Of a DNA stretch of 64,000 nt, positions 123-29,384 are shown in pieces. Source of the DNA: Chrysogorgia sp. JL179-B06. Lineage: Eukaryota > Cnidaria > Anthozoa > Scleralcyonacea > Chrysogorgiidae. Positions within the stretch are counted from its first letter, which is position 1. Every line of letters begins with the position of its first letter. The stretch spans positions 56,001-120,000 of the forward strand of contig JAYKKM010000438.1 of the NCBI GenBank assembly GCA_035772405.1, written 5' to 3'. A program made the position numbers and the translations under genes. The notes below the pieces were generated by a model, which was not told where the DNA came from, ran no database searches, and saw nothing but the letters and a program-made list of their open reading frames with translations.

Positions 123-126
123 TAAC

Positions 127-363: not shown

Positions 364-386
364 ATATACATTGTCGTGTGTTTTGT

Positions 387-731: not shown

Positions 732-862
732 CTAATACACTATCACGTGTTATCTTACTCACAGTTGATCTCACAGGTGTCTCACAGTTAACCTCACAGG
801 TGTCTCACAGTTCCAGACCAAACGCACTAAAAAATTAGGATTTTTTCTGGGAGTATAACATA
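732..862. promoter_or_regulatory. Divergent intergenic region with direct repeats
   Basis: The gap separates minus-strand and plus-strand gene blocks. Bases 759-814 hold about 2.3 copies of a 23-24-bp direct repeat built on CTCACAGTT and CTCACAGGTGT. A bidirectional promoter or enhancer is inferred from position. An A/T-rich stretch (AAAAAATTAGGATTTTTT) lies just before the start at 863. Confidence 0.4.
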
Positions 863-1633: not shown

Positions 1634-2189
1634 ACTAGAAATCGTGATTGGTCCCATGTTCGCAGGAAAAACAACTGAGACTCTTCGCAGGTTAGTCACG
1701 TTAAGTAAGTCAGGGCTCAAAGTCCTCTACATGAACAACACAGGTGACACTAGGCGAACTGACCACGTGTTCTCCACACATCGTCAGACCATTGTTGTTG
1801 GATCAGACAGTTTACCTGCGAAGTTAATCACCAACCTCCCAAGTTCTTCCGAGATAGTCGATTATGACGTCATCGGAATTGACGAAGGCCATTGGTACTC
1901 CGGGTTACTCCCAATTATTCGCGAATACATTAAAGCTGGCATTCACGTCATTATTTGTGGTCTCATAACAACGGAGCACTTAAAAAGACTTGGTGAACTC
2001 GACACGTTGTTCCCAATGGCAGACGACATCACATTTCTAAAAGCGTATTGCGCCGTTTGTCGCGACACTTACGGAACAACTGTTGAAGCGCCATTCAATT
2101 GGAGATATAATCCAGGACCATCATTCGTTGGTGGTGCTGAGCAATATCGCGCAGTGTGCAGACGTCACCATCCTTCCACACAAAATTAA
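1617..2189 (+). CDS. tk: Thymidine kinase, TK1-like (type II)
   Basis: This would phosphorylate thymidine to dTMP, supplying nucleotides for viral DNA synthesis. The P-loop GPMFAGKTT is at residues 12-20. The Mg/catalytic motif is D89-E90-G-H-W-Y, where cellular enzymes usually have DEAQF. The C-terminal zinc site is C145-x2-C148 with C181 and H184/H185, and the lasso region with VGGAEQYRAVCRR is intact. At 190 aa it matches the family's usual length. It overlaps the preceding gene by 17 bp. TK genes occur in large DNA viruses but are not core Polinton genes, so this is an accessory acquisition. Confidence 0.92.
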   Translation: MKKVGRLEIVIGPMFAGKTTETLRRLVTLSKSGLKVLYMNNTGDTRRTDHVFSTHRQTIVVGSDSLPAKLITNLPSSSEIVDYDVIGIDEGHWYSGLLPIIREYIKAGIHVIICGLITTEHLKRLGELDTLFPMADDITFLKAYCAVCRDTYGTTVEAPFNWRYNPGPSFVGGAEQYRAVCRRHHPSTQN

Positions 2190-2426
2190 GGGTGTTCTCG
2201 GATACCCCACTTTTTTAAATTTAGACATTGGTCACATGAAGCGTCCAATGTACCGTAGAAACATTTTTTCACACAGTGGTCAGAAGGTTTGTGAAATAAG
2301 TAGAGAAAGTCTCGCAGACATTTTTTACTGAGTTAAAAACGTCTTTAAAAAATGCTAGAGTAGTTGTCACTTCAGACGTCGTCTCAACAACGAGAACGAG
2401 CGCTAATTCGACTCGTCAGTCACTGT
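2190..2426. other. Non-coding convergent gap after thymidine kinase
   Basis: This separates the plus-strand thymidine kinase from the minus-strand nuclease gene. An overlapping open frame continues to 2331 but mostly overlaps the kinase in another frame and has no recognisable domain. The tail at 2332-2426 is A/T-rich then unstructured. Nothing else is seen. Confidence 0.4.
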
Positions 2427-3194
2427 CTAAAAAGTCTCTTTACAATAGCGTCTCTCGTGGTTACTCAACGCTGATTTATTTTTAAATTTACGAAGGCAGT
2501 GAGAGCATTGAAACCCAACGTCAAAGAGATATTTTATCACTGTGGTGATAGCGTCATCGTATGAGTCGCACAACAACGTTAGATACCCAGCGGATTTATA
2601 TCTGAGCAACAGAGACTCCTGCTCTTTGGACGTCCTACCTGTGCCACCTGGGTTCTTGAACTCAATCACAAGCCCGCTGTGCTGTCGGTTCGCATTGGCA
2701 ATAATCAAGTCAGGCGTTCCACGTTGATAACCTTTTTTCCACGAATTTATTCTCTTCGCAGAAGTGTCTTGGTTCTCACCACAAGCGGCTATCAAAATAG
2801 CTTCTGGATAATATCTCCTAAGAAAACCAACAACTTTCGTATGAAGGTCGAACTCAGTGATCATTTTAAATTGATTGTGTTTGAGACCAACGTCAGCTAA
2901 ACTTTTTCTAACGCTTGGCAAGACTTCTGAGTGCACCCACCTTCCAAAGTGTTTCGCACGCTCCAATTTACTCGAGAACACCAATGAGTAGACCCCAAGT
3001 TCGTTGATAAACGAGGCCTGCTCTATCTTCATTTTACAATCAGGTTCGACGTGGTCATTAACTGCATCTTTTGGTCGAGCGTAACCTAGAGCGCTTGCGA
3101 CTTCTCTTGCTTTGAACCATATTTCACCGTTGTCCATGACCGTTGTGATTTGGTGACCATCGAAGTCGAATAATCGAAGCGCTGTGGAAGTCAT
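2427..3194 (-). CDS. BRO-N / VRR-NUC nuclease / zinc-finger fusion protein
   Basis: Counting from an upstream Met at 3233, a BRO-N domain spans residues 15-112 (FKAREVASALGY, then HSEVLPSVRKSL). Residues 125-237 form a VRR-NUC-type PD-(D/E)xK nuclease, with G172-T-P-D175, then E191-x-K193 and Q205. A C2HC finger follows (C243, C246, H259, C264). The Met at 3194 is preferred because it starts just before the BRO-N core; the Met at 3233 would overlap the small gene at 3223-3363 by 11 bp. BRO-N is a DNA-binding domain of many large DNA viruses; VRR-NUC proteins cut branched DNA. A role in resolving or repairing replication intermediates is inferred. Confidence 0.82.
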   Translation of the reverse strand: MTSTALRLFDFDGHQITTVMDNGEIWFKAREVASALGYARPKDAVNDHVEPDCKMKIEQASFINELGVYSLVFSSKLERAKHFGRWVHSEVLPSVRKSLADVGLKHNQFKMITEFDLHTKVVGFLRRYYPEAILIAACGENQDTSAKRINSWKKGYQRGTPDLIIANANRQHSGLVIEFKNPGGTGRTSKEQESLLLRYKSAGYLTLLCDSYDDAITTVIKYLFDVGFQCSHCLRKFKNKSALSNHERRYCKETF

Positions 3195-3222
3195 CACTAT
3201 ATTATAGTCTCCTACAAAAAAA

Positions 3223-3363
3223 CTACTCGACATAGGTGTCAGGTTTTTTATAGATCTGGTTTGTTGTGTACCAATGCATCAGGTGTGTTTTATTAGCCCT
3301 CAGTTTTCTACGTCGTCTGAAAAAGTTTCTAATGTTACGAGCCAGTTTTCTAAGCCAACCCAT
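3223..3363 (-). CDS. Tiny Arg/Lys-rich protein, 46 aa
   Basis: A short open frame starts at the ATG at 3363-3361 and stops at 3225-3223. It begins MGWLRKLARNIRNFFRRRRK, an amphipathic, strongly basic N-terminus, and Gly at position 2 allows N-myristoylation. It fills the gap between the nuclease gene and the gene at 3372-3581, overlapping the upstream Met of the nuclease by 11 bp. A small DNA-condensing or membrane-active virion peptide is plausible. The case rests on composition and packing only. Confidence 0.5.
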   Translation of the reverse strand: MGWLRKLARNIRNFFRRRRKLRANKTHLMHWYTTNQIYKKPDTYVE

Positions 3364-3371
3364 TACATAAC

Positions 3372-3581
3372 TTAAGTCACGTCTCCTACAAGTCCCACAG
3401 TGTCTAATTCTGCGGGTAGCGTAATAGGTTCGCCGTAAGTCTTTTTAGACCTCATGCCAATCTCAGCGTGGAGCTCGAGAGTCACGTCACCGCGACCAAA
3501 TGACCCACCAGCTTTGAACATGTGATCAGTCGTCTTATTTATTTTATATATTTCATGAGGTCTCGAAACACATGCTCCCAT
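3372..3581 (-). CDS. Small protein with possible myristoylated N-terminus, 69 aa
   Basis: The N-terminus MGACVSRP carries Gly2, Cys4 and Ser6, a good N-myristoylation/palmitoylation signal. The remainder is polar without a predicted membrane span. Its ATG directly abuts the stop of the fibre-like gene at 3582, so the two are probably co-expressed. Function unknown; peripheral membrane attachment is inferred. Confidence 0.5.
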   Translation of the reverse strand: MGACVSRPHEIYKINKTTDHMFKAGGSFGRGDVTLELHAEIGMRSKKTYGEPITLPAELDTVGLVGDVT

Positions 3582-4532
3582 TTACTTTATACCATATTCC
3601 TTCATCATTTCTCCACCCATGATTATGATGTCTCGGTTTGTCATGTAGCCACTCACGATTTTCACACCGTAGAATTCTATCAACGATGGGTGTGCATAGG
3701 GTGCGAGTGGTATTCTTGGTCGATGTATTCCAAAAATTGTTCCGTAGGGTGCGCCTATCTTTTTCATATTTGCTATGAAGTCTGAATCGGTTGACTTAAC
3801 GTTGTTGACTCTGACATGTGAATTGTCCATTTGCCAGTGTATCGATATCATATGCATTTTTGTGAGGTCAACACCACTCGGAATAGTGCATACTTTCTCC
3901 ATCGCTGGGATGCTACCACCATACGCGAGCTTGTTGGTCACACCAGTCTTGTACCCTATGAACTTGTCCCAACTACCATCGTCGTTTGATATAATTGTCT
4001 CCCAATTTGACCCAGCGGTTCTCATTGGTAACCTCACCACAACAAAAATGGAGAGATCACACCATTGCATACTTGGACAATTAAAATGGAGACCTGACTC
4101 GAGTGGGATTGGTGTTAACACAGGCGATAGAAAACTTTGACTCACACCGCTGATGCCGACAATAGGACCATAAGCTGGGTTGTTTTGCACTAATTTGCTT
4201 GTTTCACCAATGGCTTTCACTTTGTTTGAACCATTGGTGTGAAATTCCACATTTTTCAAGGCGTGTGTGCTAACGTTGAAGTCGAGCACAAGATTATATG
4301 ACTGACTCTTGAGGAAACCTGATAGCAATTGCTCTAGAGTTCTTTTATTGGTGGCGTCTGAGTCATCGACTGGGTCTGCTACGTTTTTTATCGCTGAGCC
4401 TTGCATGTCTATTATTCCAGACATCCTTCCACCAGTCGCGCTTAGTTTAGGATCTTCGTCCAGATGCCTTTTCGTTCTCTTTAGTATTTTATCATGAGGG
4501 TCATCAGACTCATACCCGTAGTTTAGACTCAT
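3582..4532 (-). CDS. Fibre-like attachment protein with lectin-like C-terminal domain, 316 aa
   Basis: The N-terminal third has a phage-tail-fibre-like motif: GRMSGIIDMQGSAIKNVADP, followed by a D-A-T-N-K-R segment, the trimer-shaft signature that usually reads GDIDMGGN-ITNL-DP-DATNK. Residues of about 130-300 look beta-rich and resemble a LamG/concanavalin-like domain, ending with a hydrophobic segment and GGEMMKEYGIK. A receptor-binding spike is inferred. The first six residues, MSLNYG, are identical to those of the plus-strand protein at 6753, suggesting a shared docking tag. It sits between the frameshifted membrane-anchored gene and the small gene at 3372. Confidence 0.6.
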   Translation of the reverse strand: MSLNYGYESDDPHDKILKRTKRHLDEDPKLSATGGRMSGIIDMQGSAIKNVADPVDDSDATNKRTLEQLLSGFLKSQSYNLVLDFNVSTHALKNVEFHTNGSNKVKAIGETSKLVQNNPAYGPIVGISGVSQSFLSPVLTPIPLESGLHFNCPSMQWCDLSIFVVVRLPMRTAGSNWETIISNDDGSWDKFIGYKTGVTNKLAYGGSIPAMEKVCTIPSGVDLTKMHMISIHWQMDNSHVRVNNVKSTDSDFIANMKKIGAPYGTIFGIHRPRIPLAPYAHPSLIEFYGVKIVSGYMTNRDIIIMGGEMMKEYGIK

Positions 4533-4534
4533 TA

Positions 4535-6026
4535 CTACTTCAAGGTGTATTTGGTTAGCAGATAGCCAGAGACTGCTGAGAACCCCAAGATTATCACCAA
4601 CGTTGTCGTGGTGTCTGACTCGCTTGTGGTGGTGGTCACTGTTTTTTTCACAGGAAGTGGTGTCACATTTTCTTGGTAAACTTTTTTAGCCGCAGTCGAT
4701 GGTACCACCACATTTTCTTGGTGAGCTTTTTTTCTTCACGGTTGTTGGCACTACTAATGAGTGAGTCACCACATTCTCTTGGTGGACTTTTTTAGCCGTA
4801 ATTGTTGGTGTTGTTGCATTCAAGCGAGTGTTCACTCCAAATCTCATGGACTCTGTGGCAATCTTTAATAAGTTGTTGTACCCAGCGATTTTATTCTTGA
4901 GAATTACTACATTGCTCGGCATTAACCACGTACTTGGCGACACTGCAAGATTTTGAACAACGTTGGTGTCTCTAATCGATTTATTCATGTTGAGAATCCA
5001 TGTCGACACGTCATAGTTGACAACACTGTCAGAAAACAACTTGCGGAATTCTTGTTGGGTCTCTAGACTCCCTGCAGAACCACCAACGACTGATACACGT
5101 GTTCTCGCTTGCGCACCAAGTGTGGAGTACACAAAGGATTCTATGCTTTGATTTAGATATTGCAGTCCAATGTTGGTAAAACCATCTGAGAGTCGTGCTA
5201 CGTATCGTTTGTAATCATTCTGAACGTTGTTGAGTGTGAAGACTCTGGATTCGCCTGTTGTACCATCGCTAAGGACTTTATTCTGGTAATAATGTTTTCT
5301 GGGAATCTTAGAAATCTTACCATACAATTCGGAAGCGTTGAATTCTCTACTTATTGATTTCATGGTCTCACCACCCTCCATTCTTCTCAGAAGTCTTCTA
5401 ATGGTGAAGTACACATGAAATCTCATCACACTTGTGACCACGGGGTGGACTTCTTGTGACACTGATAAATGTTGCAGTGACACCCCGCAACAGAAACTCG
5501 CACAATATGTCGCAAACACAACACGATAGTAAGATTCGTTGTCGTCCCACTCTGATTTTGTCTTTGACGTGGTGATTTGTAAGGTTGGTAGCTTTGACAT
5601 GAAGTAGCTATTTTGGTTAACAAAAACTTTGAAGTTATTCACTGGATAATTTAACACATTTTCTGTTGGATAGCCGTCCCAAAGTCCCCAGTGGTTTTTA
5701 TGACCTTTTGGTAGTGGTTGGATAGTTCCACCACCTTGCCATATTATTGGGAACTTACTATTGTGTAGCCACTTCCACATGTTTTTATCATTTTTGAAGG
5801 TTGTGCTGGTTATGTCCGTGCTGAGGATGTCATTGTTTCTGAAATACACATCGACACTCATAATTTTACCGTCTTGTAAAATATTTGGATAGAACTCGAA
5901 TTTGTCTAGAGTAGCGTGGGGGTACTTTTTGACGAAGTCTGCCTTTGCGTCATGTGCAGCCTTCGATGTGTTCGCCATCGCGAGTTTGTAGTGCTTTCCA
6001 TAGTACTCATGAAGGGCTTTCTGCAT
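4535..6026 (-). CDS. Large membrane-anchored protein of the viral element, one frameshift
   Basis: The likely start is the Met at 6026 (MQKALHEYYGKHYKLA). The frame is open to about 4733, where a run of seven T (4727-4733, A on the coding strand) is followed by an early stop at 4686. A shift there restores a frame to the stop at 4537-4535, adding further copies of a HQENV-type repeat, a Thr-rich linker and a C-terminal hydrophobic segment (LVIILGFSAVSGYLL). The repeat lies roughly at 4660-4800. The body (WWxG-type aromatic patches, CASFCCGV, RRLLRRM) was not recognised. It could be a C-terminally anchored virion protein. The homopolymer shift may be decay, sequencing error or slippage. Confidence 0.6.
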
Positions 6027-6070
6027 ATATAATATACCATATGTTACACATAACACATGCTACATTATAT
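6027..6070. promoter_or_regulatory. 44-bp bidirectional start region
   Basis: Only 44 bp separate the ATG of the minus-strand gene (6026) from that of the plus-strand gene (6071). The gap holds TATATAATATA on one side and ACATTATATATGG on the other, TATA-like in each direction. A divergent promoter is inferred. Confidence 0.4.
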
Positions 6071-6733
6071 ATGGTCAGGGTTGTAGTATTGATTAGAGGC
6101 TCGACGGAGACTGTGGATCTACCAGAGGCACTTTTGACGTTTGGCTCAGATCCTCACTTACTAGTGAAAAAAGCGACCATCTTTTGGGACTACACTAATG
6201 TGGAGACCGGTGTGAATGATGAAATAAGTTACAACAGCAACAAGCACGTTTTTGGGTCTGGGTACCACACTTTTGAAATGATCGCCAACGAATTGAGAGG
6301 ATTAGGGGCTATCGAGTTAGTAGCCAACAAACACAATTCAAAGTGTGAGATAAAAACTGACCAACAATTAGAGCTGTTTAAATTTGGAGAGCTGTTAGGG
6401 TTCAACGATAACACAACGGTGAGTAGTAGTGGTTTGGTCAGCCCTAATGTTGTGAACGTTAACAAAGGGCTGAAGTACGTACAAGTGGGTTGTAGCATTG
6501 TGAACAGACCTGAGAATATTGTTAACGGTAGCAAAAGTGAGGTTATCGTTGAGTTGCCATTGACCACCACTCAACCACTGAAGAGCTCTGTTCAACACTT
6601 CTTCAACATTGAGTCGAAGGTGTCGATAAACAAAGGCGCTTTCACACAGCTGGTGTTTAACGTGACTGACCAAGACGGTAGTGGTGTCAACGTTGGCGAC
6701 ATATTGTTGGATTTGTATGCAACGCTTGAGTAG
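6071..6733 (+). CDS. Virion-type beta-rich protein, paralogue A, 220 aa
   Basis: The start is ATG 6071 (MVRVVVLIRGSTETVDLPEA); an open frame extends upstream but overlaps the divergent gene. It shares an order of motifs with the next gene: KKATIFWDYTNV, then a KFGELLGF segment, LKYVQVGCSIV, and VIVELPLTTTQPL, ending in DILLDLYATLE. The two are clearly paralogous although diverged. Strand-rich composition and position beside the capsid operon suggest a penton, spike or other minor capsid protein, but no named family is certain. A 19-bp gap separates the two copies. Confidence 0.65.
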   Translation: MVRVVVLIRGSTETVDLPEALLTFGSDPHLLVKKATIFWDYTNVETGVNDEISYNSNKHVFGSGYHTFEMIANELRGLGAIELVANKHNSKCEIKTDQQLELFKFGELLGFNDNTTVSSSGLVSPNVVNVNKGLKYVQVGCSIVNRPENIVNGSKSEVIVELPLTTTQPLKSSVQHFFNIESKVSINKGAFTQLVFNVTDQDGSGVNVGDILLDLYATLE

Positions 6734-6752
6734 CTAGACGTGTGCTAATGTA

Positions 6753-7556
6753 ATGAGTCTAAACTATGGGCATGACTCTGGTGGTTACACTGAAAAGCGA
6801 CGTACACACAACGACCCCCAAAAGTTGACGGTGCTCATCGAAGGTGTGGAGAAAGTTGTAACCTTCGACTATAGTGTAGTAGCCACACATGATAACCCAC
6901 ACATCGTAGTCAAGACAGCCACTGTGTTTTGGAACTACAACAATGTGGTGGGCGACGATATTCGATTCTTTTTTACTAGATCAGGAGCACCGTATTCAGG
7001 AGCGCTGTATCCAAAGCTCGTGACAACTCGATTGAGTGGGGGTCGTTACAACTTCGACGCGTTGGTTAGAGCTCTACGACACACGCTCAGGGTGGTTAAT
7101 GTGGGCTTCGTGGTGGAGAGACTGGTGGCCACAGGTAGAAGTAGGGTCAAAGCTCGGTCTATTAGGCATGGCGCCACCGCCCTATTAGAACTTAGGCTAG
7201 GCGACATTGGGCTTTTGCTTGGTTTCGCGAAGGACGCAGGGATTGTGTTAGATGATCAGTGGCACGACAGTCCAAACAAGATCGATATGATCGGAGGTCT
7301 AAAGTATGTAGAAGTCTCGTGCGACGCTGTTGAGATGGAGAGCAATGTGGGCACTGATGGGAAGCGTAGTAATGTGATCACAACGTTGCCAATACCCACC
7401 GAGCAGTCTCTTGATGGAGGGATACAACGTTACGCATACGTTGACTCCAAGGTGAAAATTAAAAAAGGTATTTACTCAAGTATGACGTTTCGTGTCAAAC
7501 CAAACAATGGTGACGCTGACGTTGGCGCGGTGCTATTGGAACTGTATATTGTGTGA
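6753..7556 (+). CDS. Virion-type beta-rich protein, paralogue B, 267 aa
   Basis: This shares with paralogue A the ordered motifs KTATVFWNYNNV, LGDIGLLLGF, LKYVEVSCDAV, VITTLPIPTEQSL and AVLLELYIV. It has an extra N-terminal segment of about 35 residues starting MSLNYGHDSGG, nearly the same as the start of the fibre-like protein (MSLNYGYESDD). The start ATG follows GCTAATGTA, a motif also seen before two other genes. The stop overlaps the beginning of the integrase frame. A minor capsid or vertex role is inferred. Confidence 0.65.
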   Translation: MSLNYGHDSGGYTEKRRTHNDPQKLTVLIEGVEKVVTFDYSVVATHDNPHIVVKTATVFWNYNNVVGDDIRFFFTRSGAPYSGALYPKLVTTRLSGGRYNFDALVRALRHTLRVVNVGFVVERLVATGRSRVKARSIRHGATALLELRLGDIGLLLGFAKDAGIVLDDQWHDSPNKIDMIGGLKYVEVSCDAVEMESNVGTDGKRSNVITTLPIPTEQSLDGGIQRYAYVDSKVKIKKGIYSSMTFRVKPNNGDADVGAVLLELYIV

Positions 7557-7561
7557 GTTAT

Positions 7562-8668
7562 ATGGAGCTTGGCGTGGAAACAGAGCAGGGGTTGAGAGAC
7601 ATCTATTATAATCCCAAGACGGGGTACAGTGGTGTAGAGAAATTGTATCAAAGTGCGTTGGGAGACGGGTTGAAAGTGACTAGAAAAACAGTGAAAGAGT
7701 GGTTGACAGCGCAGGACACTTACACTAGGTACAAACCTATTGTGAGAAGGCATAAGTTCCGTGCGACTTTTGTTGGATTTCTTGGTGAAGAGCTCCAAAT
7801 GGATCTAGTGGACATGAGCAAGTATTCAAAACAGAATGGAGGGTATTATTGGATATTGACAGGTATTGAGATATTGAGTAGATACGCTTTTGGAATTGCA
7901 GTTTACAGAAAAGACACTAAGAACATGACTAAGGCTGTTGGAAAATTGTTGAACGACTTTAAAGATCGGTTTGGAACCACGCCTAAGTTAGCGCAATTTG
8001 ATGATGGACTTGAGTTCTACAATGTTGGTGTTAAAAGTTTGTTGGAAAAACACGGTTGTTGAATACTTCAGCACTAAGAGCGATAAAAAGGCTGCTGTTG
8101 TCGAGCGTTTTAATAGAAGTCTCAAGAGCATTATGTGGAAGTACTTTTACACCCGTGGAACTCACAAATGGATTGACGTCCTTGACCAGTTCGTGAGCAA
8201 TTACAATAGCAACGTGAATCGAAGCATTATGATAAAGCCGAAGGATGTCAATAAGTCAAACGAAGGCGAAGTGTGGACCACTTTGTTTGGTCACCAATTT
8301 GCGGACAATCCATTACCGAAGTTTTAGAGTTGGTGAATCGGTGAGAATTAGTAAATACAAGAGCGTGTTCACAAAAGGTTACGAAGCCAACTTCACCGAA
8401 GAGCTGTTTTAAAGTGGTAAAGGTTATTCGTGGTGACCCAAATGTGTACGAAATTGAGGACGTGAGTGGTGAACAGATTATTGGTAAATTTTACGAGCAG
8501 GAATTATCGCTGGTTAATAAGAAACCTGGTGACGATGTGTACAGAGTTGAAAAGGTGTTGAAAAGAAAGAAAGTTGGAGGGAAGAAGATGGCGCTGGTCA
8601 AGTGGTTGGGTTATGAGAGCAAACATAACTCATGGATACCAGAAAGCGATATTCAAAATGTGAGCTAG
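7562..8668 (+). pseudogene. Retroviral-type integrase with chromodomain (Polinton/Maverick), frameshifted
   Basis: The first ATG is at 7562. The N-terminal part matches Polinton integrases (YYNPKTGYSG, then VKEWLTAQDTY). The catalytic triad is visible: D in LQMDLVDM, D in QFDDGLEF, and E in VVERFNRSLK about 35-40 residues later. A chromodomain follows at about 8530-8660 (YRVEKVLKRKK, then ALVKWLGYESKHNSWIPE). Three single-base shifts break the frame: near 8050-8060, at a TTTT at about 8323-8326, and at a second TTTT at about 8408-8411. It would catalyse integration with a 6-bp target duplication. As written it is inactive unless the shifts are sequencing errors. Confidence 0.88.
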
Positions 8669-8674
8669 TGTAAT

Positions 8675-9683
8675 ATGGCCGAAGGTGGCTTCGACAACCT
8701 CGAGACGGAGGGCTTTGATGAATACAAAGATATGAGTAATGATGAACTAGATCGCAGTCTCGAAAGAGCCACTCAAGATCTTGAGCTAGCTCGGGGCGAT
8801 CTAGGCGTCACAGCCGATGAGGAAACTAGACTAACTAGAGTGGAGAGTGGACTGAAGCGCGAACACGACATAAGACTTCGTCAACACATGGGGGAGACTA
8901 CTAGTGATCTCGTAACGCGGAGTGGTGGAGGGGTGTATCAACATGTGGAGAGGGTTTTTAGTGATCTCGCAAACGCAGACTATTGACAACGTGAGAGATC
9001 GTGAAGACGTCGCGAGGAGTGTGCCATTGTTAGACACCACACACGCAGAGTACGTCAACATACCTGGACTAACACCAGTCGAGAACCGTGAGTTGAGCGC
9101 GCTACTCAATCCAAGTGAGAATGTGTCGCGTGAGTCTAGAATAGGCGACACTGGCGCATTGCAAGTACGAGCGGACCGTTATCAAAACTTGATAAATGAA
9201 GTGAACAAAAGAATAGCGGAGCTCGCAGAAAAAGACCTCACAGCCGCAGAGAACGAAGAGCTCGTCGATCTAGCTGAAAGAGTGATTGGACTTAAAAAAG
9301 CTAGAGACATGCTTATCGAACAGCGGGAAATAGAAGAGGTTAGAGAGCGACAAGAGATCGACATCGACAGGTTTCAGAAGTTCAAGAAATGGGCTAGAGA
9401 AAATATGGTTGGGATGAGTGCTTTAGCGATTTCAGTAGCTGCGATTATAACAACTATTATTATCGCTGGGAGGACTAACGTTATGAAAGGCGCTATGACC
9501 ACGAGGTCATTTGCGCAGGCTGCTAAAAACGCGATAACGAAGATGGGTCCATGGGCTGTTGGATTGGCGAACTTAGTTTATGACGCGCTGGTGACAGGCG
9601 CAAAGGGTCTCGCTTGGTTAGCTCAAAATCTGTGGGTGTTTGCGGTGGCATTCGCGTGGCTTGCGTATAATTATCTAAACTAG
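8675..9683 (+). pseudogene. Hydrophobic-tail virion protein, duplicate copy 1, frameshifted
   Basis: The first part (8675-8986, starting MAEGGFDNLE) is acidic and helical. The second part (frame starting within 8922-8985, to 9683) holds a charged coiled-coil region with QREIEEVRE, then a long C-terminal hydrophobic region with KENMVG-like start, AISVAAIITTIIIAGR and GLAWLAQNLWVFAVAF. The break lies between about 8922 and 8985. It is about as similar to copy 2 as recent tandem paralogues are. The order (acidic head, coiled coil, multiple membrane helices) suggests a membrane-remodelling minor capsid protein; this is inference. Confidence 0.7.
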
Positions 9684-9742
9684 AGAGAAAATGTGATTCG
9701 TGGGAGTCAGAGAGTGATATTCAAAATGTAAGCTAATGTAAT

Positions 9743-11186
9743 ATGGCTGAAGAAGGTTTTGACGATATCGAGATGAAGAACTTCGATAGACTTGATAGGT
9801 ACACCAATAATCAATTAGATGTCGAACTTGAAAAACTCTATCTAGATTATCATTCAATTACCGATGAGTACGCTGATGACGACGACATGCCAGACATTGT
9901 GCGTGTTAAGTATGACAAATTGTATGAGAGACTGAATAAATTACAGTACGAACAGGATAGAAGAGGGGTTCAAGAAAAAGAGACGCCGTTCACCGACACC
10001 AACGATGGTAAAACGGTGACAATAAGGGGGACCAACACAGAAGTCCCAGCGGTAGAGTTTGTTGAACAGGAGTCGTACGGTGACGTTAATGACACAAGCT
10101 ACAGTATGGCTCTTGAAGTGGGGTCAGACGATCTTTACAAAAGATTGGACAAGCTAAACGCAGTCAACAAAGAGGTGGTAAAAAATCAAGTAGAAAGAGT
10201 CAAGGCGATAGGTGAGAAAATACGTAAGTTACACAAAAAAAAAAAGACTCGGTCATGACGACGCGTCAAGGAAAATAGCCGACAGATCATATGTGACGGA
10301 CTCAGGGTCTATTCTTTTCAAACCGATAAACAAAGATGGTAAATATGGAAAACCCAAACGAATTCTAATACCTGTGGAAAACGGCTTGATCTACAGTAAA
10401 GATGCGAGTAGTAAAAACGCGATTAAGCAATTCAAACAGTTAGTTAGTCAAATCCCTGAGAGTACAGAAACAACAGCTGTCACAACAGAAGTGATCCCAG
10501 ACGATTCCCCAGTGATTGAAACAAGAGTGGAGCGCTATAACATAGCTGGGCTATCAGTAAAAGAAAACCGCGAACATAGAGGTATACTCAACCCAAGTGA
10601 TAGTGTGTTGCGTGAGTCGAGAATAGGCGACAATGGCGCATTGCAAATACAAGCAGACTATTATCAGGAAGCGATAAATGAAACGAGTAGGAGAATGACA
10701 GAGCTTGATACAAAAGATAAGCAAAGTGGTCTTACGAGTGACGACCAGCTAGAGTACGACGGTTTGCTTACTAGAGAGGTGGGACTCACGCAAGCCAAAA
10801 GAGAAGTCTTAGAACAGCGAGAAATAGAGGAAGTTAGAGCGCAACAAGAAGTTGACATTGGCAGATTGCAGAAATTTAAGGAATGGGCCAAAGAAAATAT
10901 GGTTGGGTTGAGCGCTGTAGCAATTTCAGTGGCTGGAATTATAACAACTATTATTATCGCTGGGAGATCTGCTGTTATGAAAGGCGCTATGGCCACGAGG
11001 TCGTTTGCACAGGCTGTTAAAAACGCGATAACGAAGATGGGCCCATGGGCTGTTGGGTTGGCTAACTTAGTTTACAACGCGTTGACGTTGGGTGCAAAGG
11101 GTCTCGCATGGTTGGCTCAGAATCTGTGGGTACTTGCGGTGGTACTTGCGTGGTTTGTGTATGATTATTACAAGCTAAAACGGTAG
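9743..11186 (+). pseudogene. Hydrophobic-tail virion protein, duplicate copy 2, frame break at A11 run
   Basis: The frame from 9743 (MAEEGFDDIEMKN) reads to a stop at 10258, just after a run of eleven A at 10235-10245. The next frame overlaps it and continues to 11186. It contains coiled-coil (QREIEEVRAQQEVDIGRLQ), then AISVAGIITTIIIAGRS, a KMGPWAVGLANLVYNAL helix and GLAWLAQNLWVLAVVLAW. The A11 run is an obvious slip site, either a polymerase/sequencing error or transcriptional/ribosomal slippage. It is a tandem duplicate of 8675-9683 and is longer because of an insertion in its middle. Confidence 0.7.
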
Positions 11187-11209
11187 CGATAAAACATATG
11201 TAAAGGTAT

Positions 11210-12448
11210 ATGAACGTCACGTCAGCAGAGTTGAGCCCTGGTTTTAGACGAGCAACTATGGGCGGCATAAAAGGGGTGAGAACGCAACACGTGATCACGT
11301 TGAACCCCAATAAAGTTAGTCCTGGTGAGGAACTTTACGTTGATATACCAAAGCTCAAGGTTAGTAGCTGTTTGGTGCCTGGATCGTTGGGTCTAGTGTT
11401 CGACTTTAAGAATGCAAACGTCAAAAGCTGGTTCTTGAACAATGTGAGCAAGTTGTTGGTTGAGAAACTTGTTGTGAGACTAGCTGGGGAGACTGTGTAT
11501 GACAACAATGGGGAAAATTACACTGGTGTTTATCGCGACCTTTGGGAAAGTGTTACTGCGCGAGACCAAATGATTGACTATGGTATTGGTGGTGAGAACT
11601 TGAGAAAGCTAGTTTCTAAGGATGACAGTGGTGCGACGAGTGGGAACGTTGCTAAAGTTAGTGACGCGTTAATGTTTGGTGTGATTGGAACGAAACTGCG
11701 GATTAAGCTTGGCAAGATCATGAATGACCATGGGTTGTACGCTCCTTTTAGCATGAACAACAACTTGCAGTACGTGATCACACTTCCGAAGGCCACAGAC
11801 ATCATGGTGGCACAATCCGGTAGCGCTGTGGGCGGATACACTCTGGAGAACCTCGAGCTTGAGTATGAGACGATTGATAACCAGGAGCTCGCTGACGAAA
11901 TAGCGTCGGGCTATGCAAGTGGTCGTAGTTTGTCGTATGAGCACGTCACGTTGATGAAAACCACTGAATGGGACAAAGGTACGACCATTGTGAACGAAAA
12001 TGTCAATCTGCCAAGAAAAAGCATGAAGGCAATTGTGTTGCTATTCACGAATAAGGTACGAACAGACAGCGAGGAGTTTCTTTACCCAAATATCGAGAGC
12101 GTTAAGGTCACAATCGAAGGTGTGCCAAATAGTGTGTACTCACAAGGCATCCCAAAGTCGAAGTTCTACGCAGAAGCGAAACGATTGTTTGGGTTGGGTG
12201 AGGAACACGCTCAGTTCATGACCATACAGAAATTCTATAAAAATAGTTTTGCGTTGGTCATTGACTTGAGGAGCGTTCAAGATAATTACAACGTCGCCAC
12301 TGGCAAGAAAATCGTAAACACACAATCCGGCGTGCTTCTTGAAATCACTAAGAAAGCGACGACTGCGAATGTTATGTGTAGGGTGTTTGTGATGAGTGAT
12401 GGGCTGGTCAACTTCATGAACAATGGGTTGCAGTCAATCCAGTATTAA
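11210..12448 (+). CDS. MCP: Major capsid protein, probable double jelly-roll type
   Basis: At 412 aa this is an intact frame with the beta-rich composition of Polinton-like double-jelly-roll capsid proteins. Visible blocks are HVITLNPNKVSPGEELYVDI, LVPGSLGLVFDF, SKLLVEKLVVRLAGETVYD, then LENLELEYETIDNQ about midway and, in the second half, RKSMKAIVLLF and FALVIDLRSVQDN, ending SIQY. It precedes the packaging ATPase by 15 bp, the typical capsid-ATPase pair. It would form the hexameric shell. I am sure of a virion role; the exact fold is inferred from pattern and neighbourhood, not from a search. Confidence 0.75.
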   Translation: MNVTSAELSPGFRRATMGGIKGVRTQHVITLNPNKVSPGEELYVDIPKLKVSSCLVPGSLGLVFDFKNANVKSWFLNNVSKLLVEKLVVRLAGETVYDNNGENYTGVYRDLWESVTARDQMIDYGIGGENLRKLVSKDDSGATSGNVAKVSDALMFGVIGTKLRIKLGKIMNDHGLYAPFSMNNNLQYVITLPKATDIMVAQSGSAVGGYTLENLELEYETIDNQELADEIASGYASGRSLSYEHVTLMKTTEWDKGTTIVNENVNLPRKSMKAIVLLFTNKVRTDSEEFLYPNIESVKVTIEGVPNSVYSQGIPKSKFYAEAKRLFGLGEEHAQFMTIQKFYKNSFALVIDLRSVQDNYNVATGKKIVNTQSGVLLEITKKATTANVMCRVFVMSDGLVNFMNNGLQSIQY

Positions 12449-12463
12449 ATCAAACGTAATTTA

Positions 12464-13063
12464 ATGGAAACCCCGTTTAATATGTTAATTGTTGGTATGA
12501 CAGCTTGTGGTAAGACGCATTATTTGCTGGAAACATTGGAATCTGAGTACTTTAGTAAATTTGACTACATTGTGTTGATTTGTCCTACTTTCGAGTGGAA
12601 CAAAGCGTACCAAGATTGGAAATATGTGCGTGACCCTGACGTGTTAGCGATAGACTGCACACAGGACAATGTCGACGCTGTTCTCAAGTGTGTAACAAAC
12701 ATTTTTAAAGGCACTAACACTCTGATTGTGTTGGACGACTGTGCGAGTTCTCAAGATGTCAAGAATAGGACTAGTCAGTTGGTCAACTTGGCTTTTAGTG
12801 CGCGACATTTTATGCTGAGCGTTATTGTCATCACACAACAACTGACGTCGATCGCAAAACCGTACAGAGAAAATATTAGTAAGCTCGTTTGCTTCTACTG
12901 CCCAAGTAGGAGTGATATGAAGGTCGTTATCGACGATTACCTTGGAAACATTAGCAGAGAAAAATCGTCGGCGATTACGACTGCATTAAAAAATAATAAG
13001 TACGCTAGACTAGAAATCTCACTGCGCTATCCATACAGTCACGAAGTTGTTATTCCGCAATAA
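12464..13063 (+). CDS. DNA-packaging ATPase (FtsK/HerA, A32-like)
   Basis: The 199-aa protein has Walker A GMTACGKTH at about residues 11-19 and Walker B TLIVLDDC at about 86-93. A sensor-like segment, VIVITQQLTSI, follows, and then a FYCPSRSDMK region. This is the short A32-type packaging ATPase that pumps genomes into icosahedral capsids. It follows the capsid gene by 15 bp and precedes the next gene by 3 bp, so all three are probably one transcription unit. Length is slightly below the usual 200-250 aa. Confidence 0.88.
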   Translation: METPFNMLIVGMTACGKTHYLLETLESEYFSKFDYIVLICPTFEWNKAYQDWKYVRDPDVLAIDCTQDNVDAVLKCVTNIFKGTNTLIVLDDCASSQDVKNRTSQLVNLAFSARHFMLSVIVITQQLTSIAKPYRENISKLVCFYCPSRSDMKVVIDDYLGNISREKSSAITTALKNNKYARLEISLRYPYSHEVVIPQ

Positions 13064-13066
13064 AAT

Positions 13067-13579
13067 ATGGGTATAAGTAATAGCGTGATGGTAAAACGCA
13101 AAAGTGGGGAAAATCCTACGATTGAGGAATTAGTTGAGGAGACCGATGACACTTCGACTGTGGAAGACAACGTTGACGTTAGGAGAGCCGAACTTATTAG
13201 ACTGTCTGGCGATGGTGTGGTAAGTCAGTCCGAAGCGTATATTAAAAAAGCGTCCGCAAAGGTTATCGACAAGATATGGCGCCAACATGAGTTGAAGAGA
13301 ATGGAAATCGCAAACGCCTTTCTCACCGACTTGCTAATCAGCAAATTCGCCAGCTTACTAGATGGGTTGAACGCTATAGAGAATCCTGACGAACTAAATG
13401 ACGAACTACAAAAAGATCCGTTACTAAAGAAAGACGTCGAGAGCATTGTCGCGGTTGTGACACCATACGTGCCTTTCTTAGGCTTGTTGTCTGGAGGAAT
13501 TATAACGTCGAAACACGTGTACGATCACCATTTTAGAAGCGAGGTGGTAAACACTAAGAGTAGTGAACAAACAGACTAA
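13067..13579 (+). CDS. Possible myristoylated virion protein, 170 aa
   Basis: The N-terminus MGISNSVM has Gly2 and Ser6, a good myristoylation signal. An acidic Thr/Glu linker follows, then a helical core and near the C-terminus a hydrophobic stretch (VAVVTPYVPFLGLLSGGIIT). The start lies 3 bp after the ATPase stop. It is the last gene before the non-coding right tail. Function unknown; a membrane-associated accessory virion protein is inferred. Confidence 0.6.
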   Translation: MGISNSVMVKRKSGENPTIEELVEETDDTSTVEDNVDVRRAELIRLSGDGVVSQSEAYIKKASAKVIDKIWRQHELKRMEIANAFLTDLLISKFASLLDGLNAIENPDELNDELQKDPLLKKDVESIVAVVTPYVPFLGLLSGGIITSKHVYDHHFRSEVVNTKSSEQTD

Positions 13580-13994
13580 TTCGTAGAGTAGTTGGCTATT
13601 TGTTAGCTAACGTTGTTAGCCAATCAAAAGAGCGCCATTTCGCTATCCATTTGGATAAACATCACCACTAGAATCAAAATCTGGTGGTTTTTTTTCGCGT
13701 GTGAATTTGTGAGACAGCAGCAGAACGCGTCGGTGGTTTGTTGAACAAAAATGTAAAAATGTTGAAATGACACCTTCTACTTTTTTAAATGTGTGAAAAC
13801 GTTGAAGTGGCACACTATGCCTTTTTTTTAAATACGCGAAAATGTTGAAACGACACTTTCTACTTTTTAAAGACGTGAAAATGATGAAACGACACATTCT
13901 AGCTTTAAATTTAGCGAAAACAGTTATTTTAGTATTTCTTATCAATTGAGTGGGAAACATGGGAGAGGTGTTTAGATTGGCTAATGATTGCCAT
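13580..13994. repeat. Non-coding right tail of the viral element with hairpin and tandem repeats
   Basis: No gene is seen. A hairpin (TTGGCTA at 13592 pairing with TAGCCAA ending at 13623) lies just after the last stop and may act in transcript end formation. Bases 13755-13925 hold about four degenerate units of 40-45 bp built on AAAATGTTGAAACGACAC followed by a T run. Position between the last gene and the terminus suggests a replication or packaging role; that is inference. Confidence 0.55.
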
Positions 13995-14154
13995 AGTAGT
14001 ATAGAGAGTGGCGGTACGAGTTAGTCAACGTCGATTGTAAAACATAAACACCAAAACATTGCTGAGTTGTGGCTCGACACAAATTTGGTGATGTTTTGGT
14101 GTTTATATTACGGTTGACGTTGACTGAGCTCGTACCGCCACTCTCTATACTACT
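13995..14154. repeat. 160-bp palindrome forming the right end of the viral element
   Basis: The arms start AGTAGTATAGAGAGTGGCGG and end with the reverse complement; about 75 bp pair with a few mismatches around a short loop. The 17-bp tip AGTAGTATAGAGAGTGG is identical to both tips of the foldback at 24878-29124. The palindrome has no target duplication of its own (TGCCAT versus TAAATA), so I read 14154 as the right terminus of the larger viral element. A stand-alone MITE is the alternative. Confidence 0.6.
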
Positions 14155-14188: not shown

Positions 14189-14261
14189 TGTCTCAATAGC
14201 TCAGTGGTTAGAGCGCCGATGCGTTGATTCTGAGACCTCGGGTTCGATTCCGGTTGGGGCA
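14189..14261 (+). repeat. tRNA-derived sequence (degenerate)
   Basis: An acceptor-like 7-bp pairing, a good D arm with A-box (TAGCTCAGTGGTTAGAG) and a B-box (GGTTCGATTCC) are visible over 73 nt. The anticodon stem and T stem have mismatches and the anticodon loop is not canonical. It is more likely a SINE head or pseudo-tRNA than a working tRNA gene. Similar tRNA-like heads occur elsewhere in the window. Confidence 0.5.
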
Positions 14262-14361
14262 GTCAAATTTTCATATACATATATTTGACCATTAATAAAT
14301 CCTCTCTTGATCTAAAGAAAATTGTTGTAAAGCCTCCTGTATACAAGAACCGGTAATCTAC

Positions 14362-24515: not shown

Positions 24516-25322
24516 CTAAACGACAATGAGAAATGAGTGGTTCATTGAAAGCATCCATGTAAATGCTCATTTCCCCTTATGCGGACAACGCCGACGCTAG
24601 TTGCCGTTTCGTGAACAGTCGTTGCCATCATTGACCTCATCCTACACAATTTCCGATAAACAGTGGAATCTAACCCTGAGCTACCGAGACTATATCAGTA
24701 ATGCAAGTAATATTGGGCATTTCACTCGAATAAACAACATGTACTAAGTATTTTTGGTGAAGGAAAATTTAGAGTGTTGGAATATATACATTTTAAGACC
24801 AAACCGGGACCAGTTGCGAAAAATACAACTTCAAGGCCTTCCGGCTGGAATTGAACCGCGACCCTGCGATGCTAGTGAGTAGTATAGAGAGTGGGGGTTC
24901 TCAGACGGGTGGTGCGGGTGGTGCTCTTCGCACCACCGACGTCATGACTTCTCGTGAACCTACACGGCCCCGTAACCATAAGTATTTATTCAGATTACGT
25001 CGTTAAACCTTCAGGATCCCTAACCCTAGCCCGTGTACCAGTAGAACCTGCATATATCAGATTACGTCATGACTTCTCGTCTTCCTGGAGGAGCCTTAAC
25101 CCTAATTAGTATTCATTTTATAACGCCTTATTATTATAGTTACGTCACCCAGTTACAGTCTTCACTAACCCTTGTCCTCTTCCTCCGCCCCCATATTCCG
25201 ACACCTTTCGAACTTAATTTCCGATGGAGTTACGTCATTATCAAAAGGTAGATCTTATTATTTTTTAATAATATAAGAAACGCCTTTGTTTTTATACACT
25301 TCGCCTCCCTACAGCAATGTGA

Positions 25323-25556
25323 ATGTGGGACAGTAACCAACCCGAAAGCAGCGCATGCGCCATGGATATGATTTGGGACGAACTGAGGAGAAATAACGTA
25401 GACATCTATAAAGATACGCTATCGTTCTATATCAATAAATCTCTTAATGAACATAGAGGCTTGTACGACTGTCTTAGCGTTCAACTTAATCCAGAATCTT
25501 TTCATCTTGTTTACGAAGAAATGAAGGTGAATAATTTTGGCTTAAAACTTGTCTAG
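25323..25556 (+). CDS. 77-aa open frame in left arm of the foldback
   Basis: It starts MWDSNQPESSACAMDMIWDE and ends FGLKLV. Composition is normal for a soluble helical protein, with two Cys, and no low complexity. A TATA-like TTTTTATACACTTCG lies about 35 bp upstream. The same frame is open in the opposite arm with one residue changed (S to C). The family was not recognised. Because arms of palindromes are kept alike by gene conversion, identity alone does not prove selection. Confidence 0.45.
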   Translation: MWDSNQPESSACAMDMIWDELRRNNVDIYKDTLSFYINKSLNEHRGLYDCLSVQLNPESFHLVYEEMKVNNFGLKLV

Positions 25557-26214
25557 AAGAACATCGAGTGTTGTTCGACAGCATCAGTGACCAAATATAC
25601 CCAGACTATATGTACCCAGACTAAGAATTTTGATCGAATTATCGCTTATCTATCTCCAGTATATACATATGAAGAATAAATTCGAAAAGCCGTGCGAAGA
25701 GCAAAGACTTGTTAATATACACTAGGCTTTCTGTTAAGAATAAAAAAAAAAAAAAGATTCTCGCACGTGCAGGAGTTATACATCATATGGCCATGAAGAG
25801 ATCGGCCGAATTATCGCTTATCTCGCTTTGGTGTATAGGATTCCTATGAGGAAGAAACACTTTGGGAAACAGTGCGAAGAATTGTTAAGGATTTAAAACG
25901 TGTGGACAACTGCTTTCAAAGCGTTGCTAGGCCAACTTATCCTACGGCTGATATTTGCATATTTCGCATATTAAAGCGTATTAAAAGGTCATTAAAGGAA
26001 TAAAACAAAAGGACATCACAATATAAGGTTTCCTGGCAGAAGAGTATATATCTAAGAGTTTTAAATAGGTTTACTTGATCGGCTTATTTCATATTATAGA
26101 ACGACCGAGCGAGGAGTTCGAACGAAGATATAAAATTTGGGAGAAGAAATGGGCCTGGTTTGACTGATCTTTATGCCAGCGATGTTGACGCAAAACGCTT
26201 TAATATCAGCGTTG

Positions 26215-26704
26215 TCTTATCTTTATCTTTATCCTTATCTTTATCCTTATCATTATCTTTATCTTATCCTTATCTTTATCCTTATCTTTATCCTTATCTT
26301 AATCCTTATCCTTATCTTTATCCTTATCTTTATCCTTATCTTTATCCTTATCTTTATCCTAACCTTATCTTTATCCTTATCTTTATCTTTATCTTTATCC
26401 TTATCCTTATACTTATCTTTATCCTTATCCTTATCTTTATCTTTATCCTTATCTTTATCCTTATCCTTATCTTTATCCTTATCTTTATCTTTATATTTAT
26501 CCCTATACTTATACTTATCCTTATATTTATCCTTATCTTTATCCTTATCCTTATCCTTATCTTTATCCTTATCTTTATCTTTATCCTTATACTTATCCTT
26601 ATCCTTATCTTTATCCTTATCCTTATCTTTATCCTTATCCTTATCCTTATCTTTATTCTTATCTTTATCCTTATCTTTATCCTTATATCTTTATCCTTAT
26701 CATC
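26215..26704. repeat. TTATCC/TTATCT satellite in left arm
   Basis: About 490 bp of CTTTATCCTTAT units, mirrored by a shorter tract (27627-27751) in the right arm. Long open frames reading LSLSLS or FILIFI here are repeat artefacts. Next to it, at 26705-27000, are GATCATCCCTGATCAAA-type repeats of about 36 bp, mirrored at 27515-27625. Confidence 0.9.
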
Positions 26705-27626
26705 CCTGATCAAAGATCATCCCTCAGAGATCATCCCTGATCAATGATCATCCCTGAGCAACAATCATCCCTGATCATATAGATCATCCTTCAGAGATCA
26801 TCCCTGATCAGAGATAATCCCTGATCAAAGATCATCCCTCAGAGATCATCCCTGATCAAAGATCATCCCTCAGAGATCATCCCTGATCAAAGATCATCCC
26901 TCAGAGATCATCTATAATCAAAGATCACCCCTCAGAGATCATCCCTGATCAATGATCATCCTTGATCAGAGATCATCCCTGATCAAAGATCATCCCCCAG
27001 TATCCTTATCCTTATATCTACCAAAATAACGTAACGGAATCGGAAAGCCCTCGGTTGGGGATTTAAAGGTATACAGGGGATAATAAGGTCCTGCTGGTAC
27101 ACGAGCTAGGGTTAGGGATTTCTGAAGACTTAATGTAATATGAATAAATAATTAGGGTTAAAGACGAGAACTCATGACGTAACCTCAAAATTCGAAATTA
27201 TGTAATGAATATTTAATGAGGCGGCATCCTTTGGCCGGCATATCGGGGGTTATCACAAAGGATGCCGCCTCATTAAATATTCATTACATAATTTCGAATT
27301 TTGAGGTTACGTCATGAGTTCTCGTCTTCCTTGGAGGAGCATTAACCCTAATTATTTATTCATATTACATCATTAAGCCTTCAGAAATCCCTAACCCTAG
27401 CTCGTGTACCAGTAGGACCTTATTATCCCCTGTATACCTTTAAATCCCCAACCGAGGACTTTCCGATTCCGTTACGTAATTTTGGTAGATATAAGGATAA
27501 GGATACTGGGGGATAATCTTTGATCAGGGATGATCTCTGATCAATGATGATCATTGATCAGGGATGATCTCTGAGGGGCGATCTTTGATTAGAGATGATC
27601 TCTGAGGGATGATCTTTGATCAGGGT

Positions 27627-27751
27627 AAGGATAAGGATAAAGATATAAGGATAAAGATAAGGATAAAGATAAGGATAAGGATAAAGATAAGGATAAGGAT
27701 AAAGATAAGGATAAGGATAAAGATAAGGATAAGGATAAAGATAAGGATAAG
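27627..27751. repeat. GGATAA/AGATAA satellite in right arm
   Basis: Reverse complement of the left-arm satellite, about 125 bp against 490 bp. The length difference accounts for most of the asymmetry between the two arms and shows that satellite copy number changed after the palindrome formed. Confidence 0.88.
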
Positions 27752-28455
27752 ACAACGCTGATATTAAAGCGTTTTGCGTCAACATCGCTGGCATAAAGAT
27801 CAGTCAAACCAGGCCCATTTCTTCTCCCAAGCTTTATATCTTCGTTCGAACTCCTCGCTCGGTCGTTCTATAATATGAAGTAAGCCGATCAAGTAAACCT
27901 ATTTAAAACTCTTAGATATATACTCTTCTGCCAGGAAACCTTATTTTGTGATGTCCTTTTGTTTTATTCCTTTAATGACCTTTTAATCACCCTCCCACAC
28001 GCGTGCTATGAGGCGAAATATGCAAATATCAGCCGTAGGATAAGTTGGCCTAGCAATGCTTTGAAAGCAGTGCCTTGAAACCGTTTTAGTTTATATTTTT
28101 CTATGTCCACACGTTTTAAATCCTTAACAATTCTTCGCACTGTTTCCCAAAGTGTTTCTTCCTCATAGGAATCCTATACACCAAAGCGAGATAAGCGATA
28201 ATTCGGCCGATCTCTTCATGGCCATATGATGTATAACTCCTGCACGTGCGAGAATCTTTTTTTTTTTTTTATTCTTAACAGAAAGCCTAGTGTATATTAA
28301 CAAGTCTTTGCTCTTCGCACGGCTTTTCGAATTTATTCTTCATATGTATATACTGGAGATAGATAAGCGATAATTCGATCAAAATTCTTAGTCTGGGTAC
28401 ATATAGTCTGGGTATATTTGGTCACTGATGCTGTCGAACAACACTCGATGTTCTT

Positions 28456-28689
28456 CTAGACAAGTTTTAAGCCAAAATTATTCACCTTCATTTCTTCGTA
28501 AACAAGATGAAAAGATTCTGGATTAAGTTGAACGCTAAGACAGTCGTACAAGCCTCTATGTTCATTAAGACATTTATTGATATAGAACGATAGCGTATCT
28601 TTATAGATGTCTACGTTATTTCTCCTCAGTTCGTCCCAAATCATATCCATGGCGCATGCGCTGCTTTCGGGTTGGTTACTGTCCCACAT
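28456..28689 (-). CDS. 77-aa open frame in right arm of the foldback
   Basis: Mirror copy of the frame at 25323-25556, with Cys in place of Ser at one position (FYINKCLNEH) and the same TATA-like upstream sequence. Apart from that change the 234 bp appear identical. Function unknown. Confidence 0.45.
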   Translation of the reverse strand: MWDSNQPESSACAMDMIWDELRRNNVDIYKDTLSFYINKCLNEHRGLYDCLSVQLNPESFHLVYEEMKVNNFGLKLV

Positions 28690-29384
28690 TCACATTGCCG
28701 TAGGGAGGCGAAGTGTATAAAAACAAAGGCGTTTCTTATATTATTAAAAATAATAAGAGCTACCTTTTGATAATGACGTAACTCCATCGGAAATTAAGTT
28801 CGAAAGGTGTCGGAATATGGGGGCGGAGGAAGAGGACAAGGGTTAGTGAAGACTGTAACTGGGTGACGTAAGTATAATAATAAGGCGTTATCAAATGAAT
28901 ACTAATTAGGGTTAAGGCTCCTCCAGGAAGACGAGAAGTCATGACGTAATCTGATATATGCAGGTCCCACTGGTACACGAGCTAGGGTTAGAGATCCTGA
29001 AGGTTTAACGACGTAATCTGAATAAATACTTATGGTTACGGGGCCGTGTAGGTTCACGAGAAGTCATGACGTCGGTGGTGCGAAGAGCACCACTCGTCTC
29101 AGAACCCCCACTCTCTATACTACTCTAGTGCAGTGCTCTGACCACTGAGCTACGGAAGCCGTTGCCGAGAGCTTAGTCACGAGTTCGGTATATATAGTGG
29201 TGGTAATGCCGGGATAAGATTCTGGGTGTATTACAAGTAATATTGGGCATTTCACTCGATGGCCCTCGATTAAACAACATGTACTAAGGATTTTTGGTGA
29301 AGGAAAATTTCGAGTGTGCTTGGATGTGTTAATATGCACTGCTGTGTGAATGTGGGAGAGCTTGGAGAAGACAGACGATACATA

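Follow-up and report, generated by a model that had tools for sequence, protein, structure and literature searches.

A palindromic, non-autonomous Polinton/Maverick derivative in Chrysogorgia that probably acts like a viral satellite

What is a 4247-bp palindrome with viral ends, and how could it have been made and moved? The question is raised by a foldback element at positions 24878-29124 of a 64,000-nucleotide stretch of the genome of Chrysogorgia sp. JL179-B06 (the window; C438:56001-120000 in an assembly of 781 Mb and 522 contigs, to which all genome-wide counts refer), which also holds the right part of a Polinton/Maverick-type virus that we call class A. The original prediction took the foldback for a satellite of that virus, a non-autonomous passenger analogous to a hybrid of a virophage and a miniature inverted-repeat transposable element (MITE). 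We assign a probability of about 0.72 to the reading that the foldback is a non-autonomous, palindromic Polinton/Maverick derivative acting like a satellite or defective-interfering genome. In its general form the satellite reading is likely, judged from sequence comparison.

The foldback begins and ends with the tip AGTAGTATAGAGAGTGG (24878-24894 on the + strand, 29108-29124 on the - strand), which carries the (AGT)2//(ACT)2 end motif and agrees at both ends with the viral tip ending at 14154 over 17 bp, as had been predicted. The other structural claims also held: the flanks agree over exactly 6 bp, CTAGTG (24872-24877 and 29125-29130), and the arms, put at over 1.8 kb and almost identical, agree at 1770 of 1818 aligned bp (97.4%), unevenly, with 100% over 647 bp and 92-98% in other stretches. 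The halves measure 2367 bp (left) and 1880 bp (right), a difference due mainly to two simple-repeat stretches in which the left half exceeds the right by 364 and 175 bp. When the flanks are joined with one copy of CTAGTG, ARAGORN reads a tRNA (Ala) that neither flank gives alone, and this restored tRNA-like sequence identifies the foldback as a clean insertion. Targeting of tRNA as a rule was considered and rejected: a tRNA-like empty site appeared at one of 17 joined sites with default settings and at three of 17 with relaxed ARAGORN settings. Outside both duplications lies a direct repeat (24698-24777 and 29228-29317; 94% in two pieces), perhaps part of a host repeat beside the tRNA-like sequence. 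Outside the repeat arrays, no open reading frame of at least 120 amino acids (aa) occurs in the foldback. Five Polinton proteins gave no tblastn match in it, namely the integrase, ATPase-like protein and polymerase of class B (our label for a second Polinton lineage, with a Bcl-2-like gene) and the ATPase and integrase core of class A; no capsid gene was seen, capsid proteins not being among the queries. The features of the foldback are as follows.

24872-24877, no strand: left copy of the 6-bp target duplication CTAGTG (flank comparison; joined flanks tRNA-like)
24878-24894, + strand: left tip AGTAGTATAGAGAGTGG with the (AGT)2 end motif (genome site counts)
24878-26215, + strand: left outer arm, with tip, class-B-like terminal region and Bcl-2-like gene remnant (inverted repeats; blastn to class-B loci)
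25350-25661, + strand: degraded Bcl-2-like reading frame, left copy; a 77-aa open frame ends at 25556 (tblastn, 5e-19)
26216-26704, + strand: left array of CTTATCTTTATC-type repeats (repeat analysis)
26705-27001, + strand: left array of GATCATCCCTGATCAAA-type repeats (repeat analysis)
26881-27135, + strand: left inner arm, pairing with 27371-27625 at 97%
27220-27269, no strand: centre hairpin, a class-B Polinton terminus minus its last 4 nt, folded back (alignment score 121)
27371-27625, - strand: right inner arm (inverted repeats)
27627-27750, - strand: right repeat array, shorter than the left (inverted repeats; arm alignment)
27751-29124, - strand: right outer arm (inverted repeats; arm alignment)
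28351-28662, - strand: degraded Bcl-2-like reading frame, right copy (tblastn, 5.6e-19)
29108-29124, - strand: right tip (tip match)
29125-29130, no strand: right copy of the target duplication CTAGTG (flank comparison)

The exact 17-bp tip, for which a genome-wide count had been proposed, occurs at 804 forward and 815 reverse sites (1619) against 0 + 0 for the reversed pattern and is therefore not due to chance; duplicate haplotype contigs may inflate tip counts. Among the first 100 sites listed, merging of tips that face each other within 250 bp gave 74 ends, which formed 27 pairs and left 20 ends unpaired. Virus-sized pairs, called by size (at least 17.3 kb; genes were read in the window's virus only), made up 26 of the 27, with 19 of 17-20 kb and seven of 20-29 kb, and the remaining pair spanned 4.1 kb. 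Exact 6-bp duplications flanked 10 of 10 virus end pairs (nine from 30 tip loci and the window's virus, all readable on both sides) and 0 of 90 mismatched pairings, so the tip is not, at the sites read, a common motif without paired ends or 6-bp duplications. Automatic pairing by neighbour crossed two nested viruses on C5, where the duplications give the nested pairing. At 26 of the 74 ends the tip is present in both orientations 117-174 bp apart, and three such double-tip ends folded into near-perfect hairpins; hairpin-like ends of this kind look unusual for Polintons. An additional AGT triplet, slightly altered, is present in two tips (AGTGTAGTATAG at L030:4817 and AGTCGTAGTATAG at L022:6489), consistent with slippage of protein-primed initiation. 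A study of vertebrate Mavericks describes 5'-(AGT)2//(ACT)2-3' end motifs, 6-bp duplications and a length of ~17 kb, and ties the end motif to jumping-back in protein-primed replication (PMC8097293). A search of viral contigs with the tip gave 0 matches, in a set from which records of this genome may be absent.

The foldback has relatives of its own. A foldback-type tip (TATAGAGAGTGGGGGTTCTGAG, up to 2 mismatches) was found at 36+59 sites genome-wide and 0 in the control, and paired-end relatives of the kind that had been looked for amount to 20 tip-paired elements, 19 of them paired by eye from the tip list and one, L011 on C475, with more diverged outer tips. Nineteen are 3.9-13 kb long, one is 24.5 kb (C142) and none is 17-20 kb; most of the longer members were read at their ends, and L028 was read except for its last 1.2 kb. 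Among 17 family members whose flanks were read, the duplication is exactly 6 bp in 10 and agrees at 5 of 6 positions in six, while one member (C170) lies inside a TA repeat, set against 2 of 272 exact matches and 8 of 272 with at most one mismatch when flanks were mispaired. The right tip of L022 (AGTCGTAGTATAG) was placed by hand. Outside the 17 stand L014 (right tip decayed), L010 and L013 (one end each), L017 (class-B tips, flanks not matching) and the elements on C142, C144 and C224 (ends not fetched). The mirrored flanks of the C397 and C501 elements indicate that these are probably one insertion on two contigs; they are counted separately in both totals. L014 is a decayed member of ~1.9 kb. 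That the foldback belongs to a separate family of palindromic, non-autonomous Polinton derivatives is real and well supported, and the predicted non-autonomous passenger with Polinton-type ends is upheld by the tips and 6-bp duplications. In a search with the first 73 bp, two foldback-like tip pairs only 1.3 kb apart appeared at C445:628918-630252 and 640519-641841, possibly miniature members and outside the count of 20. Twenty-three of the 95 foldback-type tips form a same-strand array at C402:1135252-1627574, many ~6.2 kb apart, and five foldback centres lie inside this array, a possible tandem amplification.

Derivation of the body from the neighbouring class-A virus was considered and rejected, since the tip (20 of 21 bp) is the sole similarity at an expectation value (E) below 0.05; the second-best match is 16 bp long (E 0.069). 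The foldback arm matches by blastn the terminal regions of class-B Polintons. In class B, L019 holds an integrase-core gene (PF00665, 7.9e-16) together with a Bcl-2-like gene, and L023 a B-family polymerase (PF03175, 1.3e-46). The Bcl-2-like protein of L019 matches both window arms by tblastn (5e-19 left, 5.6e-19 right; 40% of 114 aa), where the frames are broken by stops; its Pfam Bcl-2 match is weak (E 0.0076, below the cut-off), the assignment otherwise following what we take to be a Bcl-2 motif. Class-B tips (AGTAGTGATACCCCC and variants) differ from both foldback and class-A tips past a common AGTAGT. With the virus ending at 14154 the element shares the tip, but its body is unrelated to that virus and class-B-like. 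Class-B integrase matches themselves form inverted pairs ~6.7 kb apart on C34, C61, C264, C289, C309, C319, C498, C442, C143, C520, C278 and C437, often with one frame of ~360 aa and the other shorter, perhaps representing more palindromic elements that carry integrase. At L015:2657-4485, an inverted repeat of a different kind encloses Polinton ATPase-like frames in both orientations.

The centre of the palindrome is an inverted repeat around a 30-base loop. Read inward from the old end, it corresponds to the class-B terminus of L017 without the last 4 nt, folded back (score 121, with 38 as the best of 200 shuffles). The centre pattern occurs at 33 genome sites and 0 in the control. Fourteen of the 20 tip-paired elements contain an exact centre, which departs from the midpoint by no more than 7 bp in five and by 50-527 bp in another five. 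The readable centre loops all prove to be versions of the same asymmetric sequence and so point to a single founding event. With a body like a class-B end and a class-B terminus at its centre, the foldback resembles a copy-back defective viral genome more than it does a MITE, which corrects the virophage/MITE analogy. In the 10.08-kb member on C397/C501 the centre sits at one quarter of the length, the position expected if two 5.04-kb foldbacks had formed a dimer; no second centre was detected in this member.

The element thus appears to be a defective Polinton genome of snap-back type that bears the tip of another Polinton, and its origin can be pictured as follows. An internally deleted class-B Polinton would have lost 4 nt at one end, and a displaced single strand would have served as its own template, primed by its folded-back 3' end; the product would be a head-to-head dimer centred on the former end. 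By an exchange of tip, the lineage would have acquired tips matching the abundant class-A Polinton family. Given an active helper Polinton, the helper's protein-primed polymerase would copy the element from its tips, the helper's integrase would insert it with 6-bp duplications, and displaced single strands would snap into hairpins in which, we propose, the two arms correct each other. Going by ends and duplications, the family probably moves with machinery borrowed from Polinton-type viruses; packaging in helper capsids is no more than a possibility.

If strand-displacement replication passes through hairpin intermediates, mirror arms are what one would expect. Left and right arms of nine elements (the window copy, L009, L011, L012, L014, L022, L024, L026 and L017) were aligned over their first 1030 bp, or 560 bp in the case of L014; further tip loci lacked an end or were set aside. 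By identity and in the tree, the arms of one element are mutually closest relatives in 8 of 8 elements with foldback-type tips, the tree support being weak for the near-identical pair L024 and L026. In seven of the eight the two arms are 98-100% identical to each other, and in L014 95.5%. Recent movement is suggested by L024 and L026, which agree at 99.6-99.7% and have different target duplications. In L011 an additional end segment, ending in a second tip, is nearly the same at both ends. A competing account, which we consider doubtful, is that the arms owe their likeness to gene conversion after insertion and not to hairpin replication before it. Long palindromes do undergo conversion in chromosomes, and the uneven identity within the window element speaks for such a process. 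The five centres within 7 bp of the midpoint, two of them in elements (L009 and L012) with repeat arrays on either side, and the extra segment at both ends of L011 speak against it, although conversion may account for both.

A gene is present in each arm of some larger members. The 8-kb element L028 on C403 contains a 209-aa frame of C2H2 zinc-finger/acidic type in one arm; the opposite arm holds a further copy that is divided between two frames. A genome search with this gene gave 158 matches (150 of 536 candidates scored), of which 126 were taken for analysis and fell into 74 loci, 27 with the gene on both strands and 47 on one. C95 proved to be a single place read on both strands, leaving 26 true two-strand loci, and in 25 of these the left gene lies on the - strand and the right on the + strand, as in mirror arms. 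Among the tip-paired elements the gene is an inverted pair on C309, C80, C170, C295 and C403 and single on C224; none of the 126 matches falls in the remaining ones, and tblastn found no copy in the window. Selection on the gene is not claimed: its ratio of non-synonymous to synonymous substitution rates (dN/dS) is 0.42-0.89 in six comparisons of four partly broken copies. The protein has 39 database relatives. A more ambitious reading, which we put forward tentatively and hold to be improbable as a whole, is that of a self-complementary Polinton-satellite lineage with one snap-back founding, hairpin replication, its own zinc-finger gene in both arms of the larger members, helper change via the tip and spread, possibly in helper particles, in the manner of a virophage whose host is a virus-like transposon.

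It is conceivable, if unlikely, that the foldback belongs to an ordinary non-autonomous family descended from a lost or unsampled autonomous Polinton with the same tips, the palindrome being accidental and no change of helper having occurred. Foldback-type tips leave class-A tips after ~21 bp and related tip variants are widespread, both as this account would have it. However, no tip-paired element has the 17-20 kb of a virus, and the only long member (C142, not read) has a foldback centre at a distance of 5.5 kb from the left end, which fits a foldback enlarged by an insertion. None of 150 scored class-B integrase matches fell in a foldback-tip interval, a weak point, as the comparison was by eye and covered 150 of 5412 candidates. 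Very improbable is a transposon of the Foldback/Galileo type (P superfamily). Target duplications are 7 bp in Galileo and 9 bp in FB, and membership was rejected on the 6-bp duplication of the foldback, no search for a P-type transposase having been made; the tips are moreover of Maverick type, and the loci that the arms match carry genes for Polinton integrase and polymerase. The likeness is in the long inverted arms with internal tandem repeats, features given for Galileo and Foldback in a published account (PMC3573991). A host inverted duplication or assembly artefact can be dismissed: the assembly seems to hold duplicate haplotype contigs, as the C397/C501 flanks illustrate, but paired ends with different 6-bp duplications at many sites refute it, and the window insertion splits a tRNA-like target.

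Returning to the satellite or defective-interfering reading, a number of observations weigh against it. The class-A virus and the foldback share the 17-21-bp tip only. In that virus the integrase-core match is confined to a 169-aa frame, so this copy may be broken. L017, with class-B tips, has no matching 6-bp flanks by eye, and its arms are 76.6% alike, each being closer to L014 (83-86%) by raw identity; the tree groups them by element. The centre is 244 bp off the midpoint in the window copy and far from the middle in four elements (C397, C501, C295 and C142). In six of the 20 tip-paired elements the centre pattern has no exact match, and of its 33 genome sites 19 fall elsewhere than in these 20. 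The zinc-finger gene is on one strand only in 47 of 74 loci. Finally, chromosomal gene conversion could have made the arms alike, and an autonomous Polinton with the exact foldback-type tip may be unsampled or extinct.

The neighbouring class-A virus extends from C438:50817 (L030:4817) to window position 14154, with TAAATA as a 6-bp duplication on the outer side of both ends. Its features in the window are:

1-14154, + strand: right part of the class-A Polinton, starting outside the window at C438:50817 (ends, TAAATA duplication and gene matches)
13995-14154, - strand: right terminus of the class-A Polinton, palindromic over 160 bp and bearing the tip on either side (folding)

Within the window, the virus has matches to a thymidine kinase, a BRO/VRR-NUC protein and an A32-type ATPase (935 relatives at E of 0.001 or less), and a 1235-aa reading frame with a 2-cysteine adaptor domain. 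Its integrase-core match stays below the Pfam cut-off (27.3 vs 32.6 bits) and aligns with the class-B integrase at 35% identity (6e-25). Each end is a ~160-bp palindrome (13995-14154 in the window; L030:4817-4978), so that the class-A tip is also present, inverted, at 13995. A tRNA-like (Asn) sequence at 14189-14262, read with relaxed ARAGORN settings only, adjoins the right end.

With known systems the foldback shares some features and lacks others. Like Polintons/Mavericks, which are adintovirus-like viruses of animals, it has (AGT)2//(ACT)2 tips, 6-bp duplications and terminal inverted repeats, and its terminal region and Bcl-2-like gene are common to the class-B lineage of the same genome; unlike them, it measures 4247 bp instead of ~17 kb, is palindromic almost throughout, lacks any large open frame, and gave no match to polymerase, integrase or ATPase. 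As would a Polinton satellite or defective-interfering genome, it carries the cis ends (17 bp exact) of a virus in the same genome. In copy-back or symmetric defective adenovirus genomes a viral end is duplicated head to head, with viral ends at both termini. The foldback is likewise a head-to-head duplication at the end of a linear virus of protein-primed type, but it is integrated with target duplications, has spread as a genomic family and wears another virus's tips. MITEs are short (under ~600 bp) non-coding inverted-repeat elements; the foldback resembles them in being apparently mobilised in trans via its end sequences only, and differs in its length, its palindromic form, its proposed virus-like helper and the gene in each arm of some larger relatives. 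The proposed dependence on a larger DNA virus recalls virophages and satellite viruses, from which the absence of any capsid gene seen in the window copy sets it apart, within the limit on queries given above. No palindromic Polinton satellite was found in the titles and abstracts of the literature searched, which is not a claim of absence from print.

Polintons are thought to be viruses living as transposons, and their particles and replication have hardly been observed. A parasitic palindrome family that retains viral ends and 6-bp scars and has mirrored arms would preserve, within a genome, a record of protein-primed replication, of snap-back synthesis and of integration in trans. The family suggests that Polintons have satellites of their own, for which ~20 bp of tip may suffice for a change of helper.

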